From a virus, in IMG/VR virus record IMGVR_UViG_3300010885_012095, positions 1 to 25,431 of that record: a stretch of 25,431 nucleotides of DNA; one strand, given 5' to 3'. Each line of letters starts with the position of its first letter. Positions within the stretch are counted from its first letter, which is position 1. This document shows, in pieces, positions 3,468-13,974 of this stretch. Below the pieces are notes generated by a model. That model searched no databases and was not told the origin of the DNA. It saw nothing but the letters and a program-made list of their open reading frames with translations. The position numbers and the translations under genes were made by a program.

Positions 3468-5047
3468 TGGCAGAAACAAAATTAGTACCATCATCGGATC
3501 CTAGACATACAGATCCCCAGTTTGCTGGTGGTCTAGCTCAGATTAATCCACAAGGATTGGAACCTGAAGATTTGCAAAGAATCCGTGATGTAACGGATAA
3601 AGGTATTGCTGACTTAGAAAAACGCTACCAGAACCCTAATTGGTTTAAAGTAGCCGCTGGTTTTGCCAAACCTCAACTAGGAGGCTTTTTGGCATCTTTA
3701 GGAAGCGCGGCTGAGGCTATGGGTGAGAATGTTGAGCAAGAGCGTGAAAACATTCTTCCCGTTACTAATCTGAAGATTCAACGCGAACTGGCAAATACAT
3801 TGCTGGGTCAGAAAATCAAGCAAACAGATATGTTTAAAGCTTGGCAAGCTTCTGGTCAACCAATGGATGAAAGAACCTATACCGCAATTGCGTCCCTTGG
3901 TAACGATACTGAGATAGCAAAGTCGGCTAAACAATACTGGGATCAAGCTTCTGGGCGCGTCAATACAACAGGCACTGCTGAGAAATTGGCAAGTGATTAT
4001 CCAAAACTTGATTCTCTGTTTAAAGATTTTATTAGCGCAAGTGCTGACCCTACCGCTGATCCAGCTAAAGTTAAGGCTACTACAGATGCTTACTACAAAA
4101 ATCTAGATAACGGTCGTCCACCACAAATTGATGCCAATACATGGGCGGCTATGAGTAGGACAGATAAGCAAGATGCTATTGCCAAGTATGTTGATCAACA
4201 ACAGAAGACTGGCATGACCATTGAGGAAAGATTTAGGACTGAGCACGACCAAGCTATTCCTCGTCTACAAACGATGGAAAACATTCGTAATTTGGCTCTT
4301 GGTAAAGGTCTTGGTGAAGCTACGCTCAAAGACGAAAATGGTAAAGATATTAAAGTCAACGGACAGCAACAGATGCAACGCATCTTGGGTATGTTCGGTG
4401 GTGACAATCCATTTGAGATCGTTGCAAAAGCGGCGGCTGATGGCAAGCTTGGAGACATGTTCAAGAACCTTGATACTTATGTAAGACAAGGTTTGATGAC
4501 TCCACAGGCGCGTGCTAAGTTTGAAGAATTGGCTAAGTTATTGGCGGCTCAACAAGTCCAATTGCGTAATGGTGCAGTTAACCCAACTGATGCCTATACC
4601 CAGTTGCAAAACGCATCACAACCGGGCGTATACAACTCCCAGCAAGCTTTGGTTGGTATCCTTGACCTCATGGCTCATGGTGAGCGTAACAACATTGATA
4701 AGTACCGTTATATCGTTGATAGCAAAGTTGACGCACGACACCTTGGTTCGAATGAAGAGTACTATCGTCGCCAAGGAGAATATGCTAGAGAACATAACAG
4801 GATTGCTATTGGCAAGCCTAGCTACGACTCGCCTTCTTTCTACAATCCTTACGGTAAAGTTGATCCTACTTCAACTGAAAGTAAAAACAGTCAGAGTAAC
4901 AATCAACCAAATACTCAACAAAACAATGCACCGCAAAATAGTGCTCCTCCTGCTGGTAGGAAGAACCGTATCGTTGGATCAAATGGTAATTGGTACCAAC
5001 GCAATGAGCAGACAGGGAAGTGGGAAGACACTGGGGAGAAAGCGTAA
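3467..5047 (+). CDS. Large helical internal virion protein, gp15-position
   Basis: 526 aa from the ATG at 3467, which overlaps the previous stop as TAATG; a longer in-frame reading from 3419 lies inside the upstream gene and is rejected. The protein is mostly charged and helical, with EPEDLQRIRDVTDKGIADLEKRY near the start, an Asn/Gln-rich linker about 470-500, and a short WYQRNEQTGKWEDTG end that looks like a small beta element. I find no cysteine at all, in sharp contrast to its two upstream neighbours. By position between a gp14-like gene and a transglycosylase-like gene it corresponds to T7 gp15, an internal core protein of the ejection tube. No direct sequence motif proves that. Confidence 0.65.
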   Translation: MAETKLVPSSDPRHTDPQFAGGLAQINPQGLEPEDLQRIRDVTDKGIADLEKRYQNPNWFKVAAGFAKPQLGGFLASLGSAAEAMGENVEQERENILPVTNLKIQRELANTLLGQKIKQTDMFKAWQASGQPMDERTYTAIASLGNDTEIAKSAKQYWDQASGRVNTTGTAEKLASDYPKLDSLFKDFISASADPTADPAKVKATTDAYYKNLDNGRPPQIDANTWAAMSRTDKQDAIAKYVDQQQKTGMTIEERFRTEHDQAIPRLQTMENIRNLALGKGLGEATLKDENGKDIKVNGQQQMQRILGMFGGDNPFEIVAKAAADGKLGDMFKNLDTYVRQGLMTPQARAKFEELAKLLAAQQVQLRNGAVNPTDAYTQLQNASQPGVYNSQQALVGILDLMAHGERNNIDKYRYIVDSKVDARHLGSNEEYYRRQGEYAREHNRIAIGKPSYDSPSFYNPYGKVDPTSTESKNSQSNNQPNTQQNNAPQNSAPPAGRKNRIVGSNGNWYQRNEQTGKWEDTGEKA

Positions 5048-6414
5048 TGGCTGATCAAATTCCTTTGTCGTCTTGGAATAACAACCCCGGCAATCTTCGG
5101 TACAACCCTAAGATTAATTATGAGGGCGCGATTGGGTACGATCCTGACACCAAATTTGTTATTTTTGAAACTCCTGAATTTGGTCGTAAAGGATTAGTGC
5201 AAGACATCAACGCCAAGCTTAAGCGTGGTATCAATACGCCAAGTGCTTTTGTTGATGCTTACTTAGGAAATGATCCAAAAAACACTGACGAAAGCAAAGT
5301 GAACTACAGAGGACATTTGGCTAAAACTGTCGGTCTAAATAATCCATCAGATCCATTTCCAGAAGGATCGGCAGAGAAAATTGCTGATGCTATTACTGGC
5401 TTTGAAGGTGGTACTTGGAACAAAAAAGAACTTGAAAAGAAAAAAGAAGAGTCTAAAAGTGAAACTTCAGGAAAAGCTTTTGACGGTAGCGACTTAAATG
5501 ACAATGCGGTTGAAGACGCTGAAAAAGAACACAAAGGCAAAGAATTAGAGTACACAGATCCTAAGACAATCCCCGGTGTTCAAGAGACAACTAAAGACGC
5601 ATTAAAAGTAGTTGGCGCAAAGTTAGGTGCAGGAACAGCAGGTGCAGTTGAGACTGGCAAAAAGGTTTTACCTTTGGTTCCGAATGTCTATAGCCAAGTA
5701 ATGGGTCTTGATCAGAATATCAATCGACCATCTACTCGTATGTCGATGCAACGGTATTTGAACAGTCAAGTCAATCACAATTTGAATCTGCATTTGTCTG
5801 ATCTTGAGAAGGAATACAACGCTCTATTGAAAATCAAAGATCCTAGTGCTACTCCTATAAAGATTCGCACCATGGCAGAGGTTCAGCAGGCTTTAGATGC
5901 GATTAAACCTACGCCTGATCAGATGATTGCTAAACCTCGTGTAGAGCAGGTAAGACCCGGTGTATTTCGCGAGACTGGGGAATTTACTTCTAAGAAGATC
6001 CCCGGTAACCCCGGTATCGATATGTCTAGGTATGAAATCAATCCCAACACGCCTATTCGTAATGAGGTTAAAGCTGGAGTTCAGACCGCAGGTAATGTAG
6101 TCAAAGGCGCGTTACCTTCAGTAGCTCGTGTTGGTATAGGTACTCTTGGTGGTTTGGGTGCATTGTCTGGTGGGTATGACGCTTATGAAAGTGCCAGAGA
6201 AAAAGGACTCACAGATCCAAGAACTATTTCAAAAAGCGCGGCGGCTTTAGGTAGCACAATGATGATGTATCCATCAGTACCAACACAACTGGTTGGTGGG
6301 TTATTGAATGTTCCTGAATTAATCTGGAACGGGTATGATTGGGTTGAAAGAAATAGAAAGAATTCGGATAGGGAGCAAACACAAAAAGCTCTAGAGTCTG
6401 CACCTATCAACTAG
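5047..6414 (+). CDS. Virion protein with transglycosylase-like N-terminal domain, gp16-position
   Basis: 455 aa from the ATG at 5047 (TAATG overlap, GGGGAG upstream). The first about 115 residues, with WNNNPGNLRYNP, a GAIGYD strand and FETPEFGRKGLVQDI, match an NNPGN(L/I)R domain common in phage virion proteins and peptidoglycan hydrolases. A Lys/Glu-rich linker follows (about 120-170), then a Gly/Ala-rich region and a hydrophobic GIGTLGGLGALSGGYDAY segment near 365 that could insert in a membrane. No cysteine was found. Last gene of the virion run and upstream of the terminator, so it probably is the gp16-like ejection protein that locally opens the cell wall. It is much shorter than T7 gp16, so the assignment is functional rather than orthologous. 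Confidence 0.7.
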   Translation: MADQIPLSSWNNNPGNLRYNPKINYEGAIGYDPDTKFVIFETPEFGRKGLVQDINAKLKRGINTPSAFVDAYLGNDPKNTDESKVNYRGHLAKTVGLNNPSDPFPEGSAEKIADAITGFEGGTWNKKELEKKKEESKSETSGKAFDGSDLNDNAVEDAEKEHKGKELEYTDPKTIPGVQETTKDALKVVGAKLGAGTAGAVETGKKVLPLVPNVYSQVMGLDQNINRPSTRMSMQRYLNSQVNHNLNLHLSDLEKEYNALLKIKDPSATPIKIRTMAEVQQALDAIKPTPDQMIAKPRVEQVRPGVFRETGEFTSKKIPGNPGIDMSRYEINPNTPIRNEVKAGVQTAGNVVKGALPSVARVGIGTLGGLGALSGGYDAYESAREKGLTDPRTISKSAAALGSTMMMYPSVPTQLVGGLLNVPELIWNGYDWVERNRKNSDREQTQKALESAPIN

Positions 6415-6780: not shown

Positions 6781-7572
6781 TTAAAGTCCAAAGTTATTTT
6801 TGAGTTTCCAGAACCTAAGCAAAGCTTGGAACATTTCCCACCCTTTTGCTAGATCCTCTTCTGACCATTCAACAACCTTGATAAGACCATGATGAGTACG
6901 AGAACAGAACACATTCGCGCATCGAGCATTGGGTAATCCAAGACCAAATCGGTACGCTGAGAGTTGCATCAGGTGCTCGTCATACGCCTCAACTTTATCG
7001 TCAGGGCCAAAATCCTTAGACTTGGCATCCAATACAATACCTGTAGGGGCATGCTCATCAGCCTCGCTGTAGAGGTCTACCTTGCCTCCAAAGCCCATGG
7101 GTGATGCGAAGGCACGCTCAGTAAGCCAGCGTTGCATAGGATGGGTTTTAAAGTGCTCAAAGACCTTCTCTTCGAATGCTCTAGCAATATCCTCATGCTC
7201 TACAGGACGAACACCTTCAATCCAACCTTCAATTGACTCATGGATACGGGTGCCAATTTCCGCGGCTTGTTTTCCAGTCTCCTTTGAGTCGGCAACGATA
7301 CGGGCAATAAAGTCCTTTTCTGTTTCCTCTGGTTTGCGTGGGAGTGTCAGGGCGGCTAACAGCATCTGTTCGTTTTTCCACACCTCCAAACCCGGCTTTG
7401 CACAGACCTTCAGCACTGTGGTTACTGAGGGTACTAGGTCAAGTTTGCGTGCATCACGAAGGGTAGTAGGACGGTCAGATCCATCCTTTGCTTTGACGGT
7501 GTATTGCGGTGCTCCGTCTTCAGAACGGTACCAGTGAACGCTCTCTGCTGATCTTGCGATGATTGTTGTCAT
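6781..7572 (-). CDS. PD-(D/E)XK exonuclease (Cas4/RecB-like) of the recombination module
   Basis: 263 aa. PSVTTVLKVCAKPGLEVWK (about 48-66) is the N-terminal signature of phage PD-(D/E)XK nucleases. The catalytic core is visible: GTRIHESIEG (His111), GGKVDLYSE with Asp166 as the motif II acid, LDAKSK (Asp182, Lys184) as the D/E-x-K motif, and QLSAYRFG (Gln203). No Cas4-type cysteine set is evident, so it is more like phage single-protein exonucleases used for end resection in recombination. It overlaps the upstream AT-hook gene by ATGA and shares its operon with an SSB, which fits an exonuclease/annealing or replication-repair unit. Assignment of the fold is firm; substrate polarity is unknown. 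Confidence 0.85.
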   Translation of the reverse strand: MTTIIARSAESVHWYRSEDGAPQYTVKAKDGSDRPTTLRDARKLDLVPSVTTVLKVCAKPGLEVWKNEQMLLAALTLPRKPEETEKDFIARIVADSKETGKQAAEIGTRIHESIEGWIEGVRPVEHEDIARAFEEKVFEHFKTHPMQRWLTERAFASPMGFGGKVDLYSEADEHAPTGIVLDAKSKDFGPDDKVEAYDEHLMQLSAYRFGLGLPNARCANVFCSRTHHGLIKVVEWSEEDLAKGWEMFQALLRFWKLKNNFGL

Positions 7573-8203: not shown

Positions 8204-8851
8204 TCAAAAAGGGATATCGTCGTCTACACCAACTTCAGGGGATCCTTGATGGGCTTTAGGTGCTTCAGGCGTTTTGCCTTGTAGCTTTTCCCATTCAGGG
8301 GATGAAGTAATCTTTGTCTTTAGGTTATCGCTAAAGGTTTCAAAGATCGCCATGTCAGGCTCTTGCAGGTTAAATAGCTCGTTCTTATTGACGGCTTGTG
8401 GAAGACCGTTTTGCTTGATTATGGAAGGAACTGGAGTCACACCATCCACATTGGCGTAAGTGTTTCCATTCTGACCAGCACGCTCGATAACATTTAGCAT
8501 GCACCAAGCACCCAAGATGTTCTTGAGGTCAAACTTACGCATCTCTTCTTGAGTGAATGCTTTACCACGCCATGATTGCAGATCTAACCGCAAATTAGCC
8601 TTCTCAGACCAACTCAATGTGTAGTTCTTAAAAATAGCAAATGGGCGACCATCCATCATATTGAGGGGCTTACCGTTATCGTCTGTACCATGGATTTCCC
8701 AGCCAAGCATAATCTTGTGAAGGTACTTGACTTGACCCATGTACTCGGACTTTTGCGTCCCTAGATCTACGATCCGGTAACACCGTCCAAGGTGCATTCC
8801 AGAAGGGCAACGCTCGAAATTGCCACCCTTATCTTCTACGATAAAACTCAT
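8204..8851 (-). CDS. ssb: Phage single-stranded-DNA-binding protein
   Basis: 215 aa, first gene of the minus-strand operon, with AAGGAG upstream. The N-terminal two-thirds is a beta-rich region (CPSGMHLGRCYRIVDLGTQ, then GWEIHGTD and AIFKNYTLSW strands) of the phage SSB-like type with a CPxGxHxxRCYRIxDLGTQ start. The C terminus is a flexible Pro/Ala/Glu-rich linker ending VDDDIPF, the acidic-aromatic tail typical of SSBs that recruits partner proteins. Clustering with a PD-(D/E)XK exonuclease supports a replication-recombination role. It is not close to the bacterial OB-fold SSB in sequence, so the call rests on the tail, the start motif and context. Confidence 0.75.
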   Translation of the reverse strand: MSFIVEDKGGNFERCPSGMHLGRCYRIVDLGTQKSEYMGQVKYLHKIMLGWEIHGTDDNGKPLNMMDGRPFAIFKNYTLSWSEKANLRLDLQSWRGKAFTQEEMRKFDLKNILGAWCMLNVIERAGQNGNTYANVDGVTPVPSIIKQNGLPQAVNKNELFNLQEPDMAIFETFSDNLKTKITSSPEWEKLQGKTPEAPKAHQGSPEVGVDDDIPF

Positions 8852-8970
8852 GTGATTCTCCTTATAAACTGTCTACTGCGACACTAACCCAGCAACATTG
8901 CTGTAAAAGAACTATAGCACAAATCTAATTCTGTGTTAGACTATTTTCATAAATTCAAGAAAGGAGTCCT
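8852..8970. promoter_or_regulatory. Divergent control region between SSB operon and Cro-like gene
   Basis: A plus promoter has TAGCAC (8915-8920), a 16-nt spacer and TAGACT (8937-8942). An imperfect palindrome CTAATTCTGTGTTAG (8925-8939) overlaps its -10. A minus promoter has -10 TATAGT (8916-8911), predicted start at 8904 and a leader hairpin CAGCA-N4-TGCTG (8890-8903). The palindrome therefore lies at the spacer/-35 side of the minus promoter and over the plus -10, so one bound protein could affect both directions. Confidence 0.65.
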
Positions 8971-9171
8971 ATGAACCTAAAGCAATATTTCAAAGATGAG
9001 CCCTACGGAGCGAAGAAAGAAATGGCAGAACACTTAGGCATCACCCCGACATGGTTGGGTCTGTTGCTAAGAAAAAGCCGTCGTCCTTCCCCCGAATTGG
9101 CAAAGAAGATTGAGAAGGCGACTCAGGGTCTTGTCCCTGCAAAAGAACTACGCCCCGACCTGTTTGATTAA
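8971..9171 (+). CDS. Small Cro-like helix-turn-helix regulator
   Basis: 66 aa, preceded by AAAGGAG. The segment about 14-42 (AKKEMAEHLGITPTWLGLLL) is a helix-turn-helix of the Cro/YdaS type: a short helix, a turn at LGI, and a recognition helix. The remainder (RPSPELAKKIEKATQGLV) is the usual fourth-helix pattern. It is the first plus-strand gene after a palindromic element that overlaps its own promoter, so autoregulation and control of the divergent SSB operon are likely. The same element recurs before other genes of the window, making this protein the best candidate for a regional repressor. Binding itself is not demonstrated. Confidence 0.8.
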   Translation: MNLKQYFKDEPYGAKKEMAEHLGITPTWLGLLLRKSRRPSPELAKKIEKATQGLVPAKELRPDLFD

Positions 9172-11884: not shown

Positions 11885-12060
11885 TGACACAAGATGAAGC
11901 AATCGAATTTGAGCGACTTAAAACCGCAAGGGATTCTTTATTGTTAACCGTAGCTAAGTTGCGTGGAGAAATTGATACCTTGTTACCCTACAAGGAAAAA
12001 ATTGAAGCAATGGAACGCGCATACGATGCTCATTTAAAAAAATCAATGGGGCAACTATGA
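11884..12060 (+). CDS. 58-aa coiled-coil protein
   Basis: MTQDEAIEFERLKTARDSLL... is charged and helical throughout, probably a short coiled coil. It starts at a TAATG overlap with the preceding stop and ends overlapping the primase start by ATGA, so coupled translation is likely. Unknown function; its place directly before the primase suggests a replication accessory role. Confidence 0.7.
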   Translation: MTQDEAIEFERLKTARDSLLLTVAKLRGEIDTLLPYKEKIEAMERAYDAHLKKSMGQL

Positions 12061-12914
12061 GTTTTTTAATCTTTGCACATCAGCATGGTGTTCTTATTGA
12101 TCACCATAAGTTGTTTGCTTCAGATCGCATTAAGCGGTGTGGCACCGTCCTTAAGCCTAAGTCCGACAATGGAGCTTACTTCTGGGATGGTGAGCGTGGC
12201 TGGGTAATGGATTGGTCTGGTGATGCCAAAGTGATTTGGTACAACGATCCACATGCCAAGCCATGGACTGACCAAGAGAAAAAAGAATTTGCCAAGAAGC
12301 GTCAAGCGCAGGCAACAAATCAGCAGTTGGCTTATGAGCGTGTAGCCCAGCAAGCAGAGATGGTTCTTAAGTCAGCCAGTATCAGCATTCATCCTTATCT
12401 TCAGTACAAAGGCTTTACTGACGAGCAAGGCATGGTCTTGAATGAGAAGTTGCTGATCCCGATGCGTAATGTCAGCACGAATAAATTGCAGGGTTACCAG
12501 CAAATTTATTACGACATGGATGCACGCAAGTACGAGAAAAAAATGTTGACTGGCATGCGTGCGAAAAACGCGGTCTTTCACATCGGTAATCGTATGGCTG
12601 ATGACACTTGGTTGGTAGAGGGTTACGCCACTGGTTTAAGCGTCTACCACGCCCTGCGTAGCTGTGGGATGAATGCGTCGGTGGTCGTATGCTTTAGTGC
12701 AGGCAATATGGTCGCGGTAGCCAGCCAGATACCGGGTCGTGTCTTCGTGTTTGCAGATAACGATGAGAGCGGTACGGGCGCGAAGTCAGCAGAAGCCACA
12801 GAACGCCCTTGGACGATGCCTGAGCAAGTTGGCTATGACGCTAACGACCTACATCAGAAATGCGGTCTATTCGCTGTTGTATCGAAGCTAATGGGGGTCT
12901 TGACACCTGCATAG
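12057..12914 (+). CDS. Toprim-domain DNA primase
   Basis: 285 aa. The first about 65 residues (HHKLFASDRIKRCGTV, WDGERGWVMDWSGDAKVIWY) resemble the N-terminal part of phage primase/helicase proteins, though I see no zinc-finger cysteines. The Toprim core is clear: TWLVEGYATGLSVYHAL with catalytic Glu188, a central GMNASVVVCFSAGNM strand, and VFVFADNDESGTG with Asp234 and Asp236. The DANDLHQK end is typical of this class. It lacks a helicase domain; the separate SF2 helicase upstream may supply that. Last gene of the early plus-strand chain, overlapping its neighbour by ATGA. A promoter-like element begins inside its last codons. Confidence 0.85.
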   Translation: MSFLIFAHQHGVLIDHHKLFASDRIKRCGTVLKPKSDNGAYFWDGERGWVMDWSGDAKVIWYNDPHAKPWTDQEKKEFAKKRQAQATNQQLAYERVAQQAEMVLKSASISIHPYLQYKGFTDEQGMVLNEKLLIPMRNVSTNKLQGYQQIYYDMDARKYEKKMLTGMRAKNAVFHIGNRMADDTWLVEGYATGLSVYHALRSCGMNASVVVCFSAGNMVAVASQIPGRVFVFADNDESGTGAKSAEATERPWTMPEQVGYDANDLHQKCGLFAVVSKLMGVLTPA

Positions 12915-12930
12915 GGTTTAGATGTAGAAT
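12900..12930 (+). promoter_or_regulatory. sigma70-like promoter at the 3' end of the primase gene
   Basis: A consensus -35 TTGACA (12900-12905) is followed after 19 bases by TAGAAT (12925-12930) preceded directly by TG. The spacer is long, so either a weak promoter or an offset -10 such as TGTAGA (17-base spacer) may be used. It would drive the structured RNA just downstream. Confidence 0.5.
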
Positions 12931-12931
12931 A

Positions 12932-13060
12932 CGCACAACTAGGTGTGGAAACCAAGTTGGTAAGAAAACCGTTAGATCAGGCTCCGACCCCGAATGGGGT
13001 AGCGTCCCTCCCACAAGGAGCGATGTTTTTCCACCGGGGTCTGTTCTAACGGTTTTTTTA
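12932..13060 (+). ncRNA. Putative structured small RNA with its own terminator
   Basis: A region with no convincing gene. It begins with a hairpin CAACTAGGT/ACCAAGTTG (12936-12959, one A-A mismatch, loop GTGGAA). A 12-bp stem AAAACCGTTAGA / TCTAACGGTTTT (12965-12976 with 13045-13056) then encloses a 68-nt structured domain. Inside it CCCC-GAAT-GGGG and CTCC-CACAA-GGAG hairpins can form, with GCTCC/GGAGC and GACCCC/GGGGTC as alternative pairings. The closing stem runs into a T-tract (13053-13059), so it also acts as terminator. It matches no riboswitch or ribozyme that I can name. Confidence 0.6.
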
Positions 13061-13070
13061 TTTTTATTCC

Positions 13071-13270
13071 CGTCGTGATGGTCGCTCACCTACAGTAGCG
13101 TCACGAGGAAATCCTTACTATGGGAAAGATGCTGAGATAGGGAAAGAGGTGGCGAAGCTAGTGCCTCTGCATCGAACGACTCGCGAGACAAGCAGGCTCC
13201 GAATAGCATACTTGTAAAGGCTCATCCCCTCTTCTGGGGAGGGCTAAGACTGCCCACCAAACAGCATCAA
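13071..13270 (+). other. Second structured non-coding stretch
   Basis: No convincing reading frame. Paired elements seen by eye: TCGTGA (13073-13078) with TCACGA (13101-13106), enclosing CGCT/AGCG (13083-13086, 13097-13100), and a C-rich/G-rich hairpin TCCCC...GGGGA (13225-13240). It contains GAGGAAATCC and the decamer CAGGCTCCGA, the latter shared with the preceding small RNA. It may be a second RNA, a long leader of the oxygenase gene or a binding region. The upstream T-tract argues that it is not simply part of the first RNA. Confidence 0.35.
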
Positions 13271-13279
13271 TAATTTTCT

Positions 13280-13325
13280 TAAGTAAACAATAATTTCAAG
13301 TTATACTCTTAATTAACTTTAATTA
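13280..13325 (+). promoter_or_regulatory. Promoter module copy (before 2OG oxygenase)
   Basis: A weak -35 TAAGTA (13280-13285), 16-nt spacer, and -10 TATACT (13302-13307). The operator-like box ATAATTTCAAGTTAT (13290-13304) overlaps the -10, and an AT-only hairpin TAATTA-ACTT-TAATTA lies at 13310-13325 before AGGAGAG. Confidence 0.55.
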
Positions 13326-13335
13326 GGAGAGATTA

Positions 13336-13974
13336 ATGGATCAATTGGAAGAGTTTCACTACTTCACAAGCCCTGTATACGCAGTGAAGAAACCAGAATT
13401 TTTAGAACCAATCCGTAAAGTTTCAAAAAAATATTTGGATAAGTCCAAAGCTTGTAAGAAGAACAAGACTCCAATGACTGTGATGACACAGAACTTTTCC
13501 AATGATGAAGAAGCTTCAGCGTTTGCACAGTATGTATCCCAAACCGCATGGAACATCCTAGATTCACAGGGATACAATGTTGACCAAGCAGTGACCTATT
13601 TCACAGAAATGTGGACACAAGAACACAATTTCCATTCCAGCATCGATCAACATATCCATGGATCTGGAGCTCAAGTAAGCGCGTTTTATTTTTTAGAAGT
13701 ACCTGAGAAGTCATGCAAGATGGTGATCTACGATCCGCGCCCAGCCAAGGTGATTATTGGCTTACCCGAAAAGGAACATGGCAAGGTAACCCAGTCAGCA
13801 AATACTGTGGTGTTCACTCCTGAAGCTGGAACCATCATCTTTACCCCAGCATGGTTACCGCATTCATTTACACGCAATCTCAACAAGACTAAGCCAGTGC
13901 ATTTTGTGCATATGAATTTGTCAATCGCGCCAGCACCAGAACCACAGCCTGATCCCAATGTGGAGGTGATATGA
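13336..13974 (+). CDS. 2OG-Fe(II) dioxygenase-like protein
   Basis: 212 aa, with AGGAGAG 8 bases upstream. The double-stranded beta-helix signature of the phage 2OG-FeII_Oxy_5-type family is visible: MWTQEHNFHSSIDQHIHGSG (His106 and His108 region), SAFYFLEVP, YDPRPAK (132-138), then PEAGTIIFTPAWLPHSFTRN with the distal iron ligand His176 and the 2OG-binding Arg180. Such enzymes hydroxylate or oxidise a protein, nucleotide or small molecule; substrate cannot be told from sequence. The C terminus is Pro-rich. It overlaps the next gene by ATGA and is the first gene after the structured RNA region, with its own promoter module. Confidence 0.8.
   Translation: MDQLEEFHYFTSPVYAVKKPEFLEPIRKVSKKYLDKSKACKKNKTPMTVMTQNFSNDEEASAFAQYVSQTAWNILDSQGYNVDQAVTYFTEMWTQEHNFHSSIDQHIHGSGAQVSAFYFLEVPEKSCKMVIYDPRPAKVIIGLPEKEHGKVTQSANTVVFTPEAGTIIFTPAWLPHSFTRNLNKTKPVHFVHMNLSIAPAPEPQPDPNVEVI

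Follow-up and report, generated by a model that had tools for sequence, protein, structure and literature searches.

The question raised by this locus is what lies at positions 12900-13060 of the window, by which we mean the whole 25,431-nt stretch analysed (virus record IMGVR_UViG_3300010885_012095), and what it does for the phage. A preliminary description had taken the region for a small phage RNA bearing a promoter and a terminator of its own. This reading is supported by the predicted fold, a conserved promoter-like site and a putative intrinsic terminator. The explanation that we prefer, with a probability of roughly one half (0.52), is that the RNA belongs to a new phage noncoding RNA family, about 120 nt long and autonomous, which works in trans as a folded molecule and probably targets a host factor.

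The features of the locus are as follows.

Before the RNA: a ParB-like protein and a DEAD/ResIII-type helicase, then a TOPRIM primase (12057-12914)
12900-12905 and 12925-12930, plus strand: sigma-70-type promoter, TTGACA and TAGAAT with a 19-nt spacer, conserved in position among relatives
12936-12959, plus strand: P1, the 5' hairpin CAACU/AGUUG (12936-12940/12955-12959), whose loop carries a pseudoknot strand; from the fold and relatives
12945-12951, plus strand: pseudoknot 5' strand GUGGAAA in the P1 loop, pairing with 13028-13034
12965-12976/13045-13056, plus strand: P2, the closing stem of 12 bp, AAAACCGTTAGA/TCTAACGGTTTT; from the fold, with compensatory changes at most pairs
12978-12986, plus strand: P3 5' strand CAGGCUCCG, in which a single wobble U is obligatory; from fold and alignment
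12987-13000, plus strand: P4 hairpin ACCCC-GAAU-GGGGU (12987-12991/12996-13000); from sequence and fold
13001-13027, plus strand: P5, the variable hairpin AGCGUC.CUCC-CACAA-GGAG.GAUGUU (13001-13011/13017-13027); from fold and covariation
13028-13034, plus strand: pseudoknot 3' strand UUUCCAC, between P5 and the P3 3' strand; from complementarity and covariation
13035-13043, plus strand: P3 3' strand CGGGGUCUG; from fold and alignment
13045-13059, plus strand: intrinsic terminator made of the P2 3' strand and a U-tract; from sequence, with a U-run in relatives
13071-13188, plus strand: RF02932 (Betaproteobacteria-1), the first module of an RNA island, 98 bits against a gathering threshold of 49.4
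13336-13974: 2OG-Fe(II) oxygenase, after the RNA
19540-20973: terminase, in the same window

The fold is far more stable than expected from composition. The minimum free energy is -65.3 kcal/mol, compared with -35.0 +/- 3.7 for 200 dinucleotide shuffles (z = -8.1), none of which was as low. The elements named in the preliminary description were recovered in it: the initial hairpin with a GTGGAA loop is P1, at 12936-12940/12955-12959, the 12-bp stem is P2 and encloses exactly 68 nt, and the CCCC-GAAT-GGGG and CTCC-CACAA-GGAG hairpins are present both in the sequence and in the fold. P1 also appears in relatives, in single-sequence folds and in the alignment, and every member has a long P2 with almost no mismatch. 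Two small open reading frames cover the RNA (12860-13078 on the plus strand and 12841-13089 on the minus strand), an overlap that is merely mechanical, and hypothetical proteins are annotated at the RNA site in MW202545. Neither overlapping frame is convincing, as had been suggested, because length changes among the relatives are not codon-like and the pairing is what is conserved.

Relatives were gathered in two ways. A primase scan collected contigs independently of their RNA content, and 13 of these primase-selected loci, together with the window-like phage L001 (MW202545.1), carry the RNA at 102-128 bits. A DNA pattern search of IMG/VR gave at least 119 stretches, most of them members, and two stricter patterns gave 58 and 77. 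After a filter for the closing stem and T-run the family comprises 137 distinct sequences; its carriers are well over 100 IMG/VR contigs of uncultivated aquatic phages. The pattern demanded CCGACCC, GGGG and CGGGGT, and the filter demanded TTTT and a stem of 8 bp or more, which accounts in part for the lack of variation in P4, in a portion of P3 and in the T-run. Neither acted on the pseudoknot, on P5 or on which bases pair in P2. When the architecture descriptor was relaxed to allow up to 210 nt, the background came close to the extra matches (18 control matches, 23 others), and so only the tight one was used.

The covariation alignment includes the pseudoknot pairing and consists of 93 distinct sequences. 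It was found that 96.3% of its cells pair, with two-sided changes at 23 of the 36 pairs and in all five aligned pairs of P5. The covariation score is 0.407 (0.177 when shuffled), there are 428 cells with two-sided changes (114 when shuffled), and pairing falls to 53-55% when the partner is shifted by one column. The covariation among relatives that the preliminary description proposed to look for is thus strong, above both shuffles and slid registers. The wobble pairs tell the strand: on the plus strand G.U pairs number 259 and A.C pairs 18 (119 and 18 when three wobble-dominated pairs are removed), and since G.U far outnumbers A.C, the plus-strand RNA is the selected, functional form. This bears on another explanation, that the site is a DNA element or a primer RNA for phage replication, which the position of the window RNA after the TOPRIM primase would suit. 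We consider it extremely unlikely, as only one strand preserves its wobble pairs, many members are found at a distance from the primase, and the GC skew shows no lasting change of sign at the RNA site.

The main feature overlooked in the preliminary description is a pseudoknot: the P1 loop pairs with positions 13028-13034 (GTGGAAA/TTTCCAC), a stretch that would otherwise be single-stranded. In the alignment of 93 sequences, seven of its eight pairs show two-sided changes and 91.9% of its cells are paired. The P1-loop strand is variable (GTGGAAA, GTGAGAG, GTGGCAA, TTGGCACT and GTAGAAG among others), and the partner strand tracks each change. The mean longest helix between the two strands is 7.75, compared with 6.43 when strands are exchanged between members and a maximum of 6.83 in 200 permutations. 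The layout is also kept in five divergent members of very different sequence that were found without the DNA pattern, namely L016 (GTCGAACC/GGTTCGAC), L072 (GTGTCAGGC/GCCTGACAC), L034 (TGTATGGGC/GCCCATACA), L005 (GTAGTGA/TCACTAC) and L023. The covarying pairing could be intermolecular instead of intramolecular.

The size, promoter and terminator are those typical of bacterial sRNAs, and the RNA might accordingly be taken as an antisense regulator that base-pairs with host or phage mRNA; the conserved sequence, however, lies almost entirely within helices, and the P1 loop, the only single-stranded candidate, varies freely together with its internal partner and offers no conserved exposed seed, so that we judge this very unlikely. 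Since the finished RNA is nearly all paired, action in trans as a folded object, rather than by mRNA base-pairing, appears most likely.

The preliminary description also pointed to competing pairings in the enclosed domain. As a matter of sequence this stands, as there are two C-rich and two G-rich strands; as a matter of structure it does not, for one fold is favoured, with P4 and P3 as predicted. The GACCCC/GGGGTC competition concerns P3 and P4, not P2. In all 93 sequences the C-strand of P3 (window 12982-12986) carries exactly one U at either of two adjacent positions (47 TC, 46 CT, no CC), and an all-C strand was found in no stretch of the IMG/VR scan, compared with 58 and 77 for the U-bearing forms. 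Because P3 always has this U, its C-strand is never identical to that of P4. We infer a rule of folding fidelity, in which the U would prevent P3 from competing with the P4 strand for the first GGGG.

On both sides the RNA is bounded by transcription signals. The TTGACA-like promoter already noticed was located at 12900-12905, and an exact TTGACA occurs in 70 of 94 relatives. A promoter score of at least 9 was reached by 83 of the 94, compared with 54 of 470 shuffled controls and 18 of 341 other regions, and the TTGACA/TATAAT-like site keeps a constant distance from the RNA. The T-tract said to end the closing stem lies at 13053-13059; the U-run is 5-9 in every relative examined, where TTTT was a filter requirement. 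With so strong a stem and U-tract, the element might be merely an elaborate intrinsic terminator of the upstream genes. This we regard as highly improbable: its own promoter stands just upstream, and the conserved pseudoknot, P3 and P5 are unnecessary for termination.

What follows the RNA is in nearly all loci not a gene directly but further noncoding modules. In the window, the preliminary description missed RF02932, which lies directly downstream; with this model, 13071-13188 is the sole match in the window and 12890-13070 is unmatched. RF02932 was also found in L001, L002, L006, L008, L020, L103, L154, L156 and Acidovorax phage AP1. It may have been described by Weinberg in 2017. A mosaic of structured-looking noncoding modules fills window positions 13071-13330 and the corresponding sites of relatives such as L004, L014, L085, L092 and L166. 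At least seven module types recur downstream, of which RF02932 is the only one in Rfam. The commonest, B1, has only a weak RNAalifold consensus, and therefore we claim no fold for it. One module appears to be nested in the hairpin loop of another (GATGATGGTG...CACCATCATC within ACACGGTATG...CTAGGGGGCAG; L004 at about 6990-7200 and L166 at about 8810-9020, compared with L092 at about 690-760).

The slot itself can be filled by a different RNA. L002 has a primase 90% identical to that of the window, and the RNA in the same slot scores only 18.4 bits. What we call the type II RNA occupies the slot in L003, L010, L011 and 61 IMG/VR stretches (L228-L288), with 48 distinct sequences; L003, L010 and L011 were scanned against Rfam and none matched. 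In L003 it spans 5850-6040, with a promoter, a 5' hairpin with a TTGGTAACC loop, a CAACCAAGCC partner and a terminator. It shares with the window RNA the slot, a similar promoter, the 5' hairpin, a loop-tail pairing (in type II read by eye only), the terminator stem and the downstream modules, several of which stand behind both types, whereas its sequence is unlike beyond the terminator end (L003 scores 10.3 bits, E = 1.7).

Such an arrangement invites an explanation in cis, namely that the RNA is a leader at the 5' end of a longer transcript, an attenuator or regulated terminator that sets read-through into the downstream modules; formation of the pseudoknot would then decide the closure of the P2 terminator. 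A cis role is favoured by the unvarying position in front of other RNA modules, by the identity of closing helix and terminator and by the use of the same slot by a sequence-unrelated RNA of similar layout. Moreover, the next module nearly always starts within a short distance (about 5-30 nt after the RNA), with a promoter-like site between terminator and module in none of 95 loci, and the RNA may therefore act partly in cis. Against it, inspection of the alignment by eye showed no conserved, mutually exclusive antiterminator pairing for the strands of P2, and P2 itself is long and nearly perfect throughout. RF02932 also exists without the RNA, and both upstream types combine with several downstream types, so that no specific pair is regulated. 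Altogether we hold the leader explanation to be possible but doubtful.

Returning to the trans-acting folded RNA, it is favoured by near-complete pairing, a freely varying loop, a promoter and terminator of its own and the lack of a universally linked protein gene. The last point comes from the neighbourhoods, where gene sets vary (primase/helicase/ParB, exonuclease, terminase, or another primase) and no protein family was found near all carrier loci; thus no dedicated phage partner gene is visible. As the neighbouring gene sets differ, the RNA is either old or mobile between phage lineages. It is present in one copy per record in all 24 records tested (49-66 kb), other matches being overlapping palindrome shadows on the reverse strand. 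In at least seven loci (L001, L004, L007, L112, L114, L160 and L185) the RNA is closely preceded by tRNA genes. In the window ARAGORN found no tRNA or tmRNA gene. In MW202545.1 (L001), six predicted tRNA genes are clustered at 5360-5841, immediately upstream of the RNA.

Among GenBank phages only MW202545.1, an uncultivated phage from Manatee Spring, carries the RNA. Plasmids gave no match, and when 84,980 prokaryote species genomes were scanned for the exact pattern, there were 14 matches with no homologue among them. A model scan of 369 genomes of one class returned three weak matches (29-34 bits), probably chance stems. Isolates with related terminases are likewise unmatched (Caulobacter GB2A and RW, Brevundimonas Strzyga and Polewnik, Roseobacter CRP-6, Pseudanabaena Pan1). 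Judged by primase, the closest isolate examined is Acidovorax phage AP1 (L226), whose host is betaproteobacterial. It shares the ParB-helicase-primase block and carries RF02932 at 4893-5016, just after the primase; the window RNA is absent from this phage, a point that weighs against the preferred explanation. From this block, RF02932 and the primase relationship, a betaproteobacterial host is likely. AP1 also provides a cultivable system for the RF02932 module, and the annotation of its glycoside hydrolase CDS (5152-5343) looks doubtful.

We picture the action of the trans-acting RNA as follows. It would be made from its own sigma-70-type promoter and stop at the intrinsic terminator, the stem of which would double as the closing helix P2. 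The predicted fold comprises the P1 hairpin, the P2 closing stem, P3, a P4/P5 junction and the pseudoknot from the P1 loop to the strand before P3 closes. Both pseudoknot strands would be transcribed ahead of the P2 3' strand, and their pairing would keep the ends of the 68-nt domain close so that the long-range P2 terminator can zip up. The folded RNA may then be bound by a host protein or RNP and serve as a decoy or inhibitor early in infection. The fold with its pseudoknot, the layout from promoter to terminator, the strand, the single copy per record, the size of the family and the mosaic surroundings are results of the analysis; separate transcription, a host-encoded partner and a role in takeover or counter-defence are suppositions. 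A wider proposal, which we put forward as speculation on the doubtful side, is that the RNA heads a cassette of interchangeable, mutually nested modules behind one promoter, forming an RNA takeover or counter-defence machine of freshwater phages.

RNAs with such extensive compensatory change seldom remain unnamed, yet the databases searched lack this one, which is common among aquatic phages. It gives studies of phage noncoding RNA function a well-delimited molecule of 120 nt whose pseudoknot can be tested, and its locus is a site where whole RNA modules are swapped between phages and where further new RNAs can be found.

When compared with known classes, the region bears out the earlier remark that no class could be named, as no Rfam 15 family matches. 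Nothing in 12900-13060 reached a gathering threshold, and only chance matches were obtained with E up to 10, the best being 6A (16.4 of 41.2 bits) and mir-593 (14.5 of 100). The put RNA of phage HK022 is an early phage element that folds at the start of its transcript into two simple hairpins and suppresses termination, whereas the window RNA itself ends in a terminator. RNAs C and D of T4 are small stable phage RNAs of unknown role within a tRNA cluster; the likeness is one of description, and T4 relatives are absent among the matches to the RNA. RF02932 is likewise a structured phage noncoding RNA of about 120 nt, but it differs in sequence and fold, and the two are adjacent, separable modules: AP1 has RF02932 without the window RNA, and the window RNA precedes other modules elsewhere. 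The GOLLD and ROOL models matched nothing in the whole window or in the more than 20 relatives scanned. These two are noncoding phage RNAs near tRNA genes, several hundred nt long and multimeric, with conserved kissing-loop pairings and unknown function (PMC12286853). The window RNA resembles them as a phage noncoding RNA near tRNAs, and differs in its length of about 120 nt, its own terminator and its sequence. It is therefore a new RNA family of a kind already known, the structured phage noncoding RNA, while the modular island that it heads may be of a new kind.
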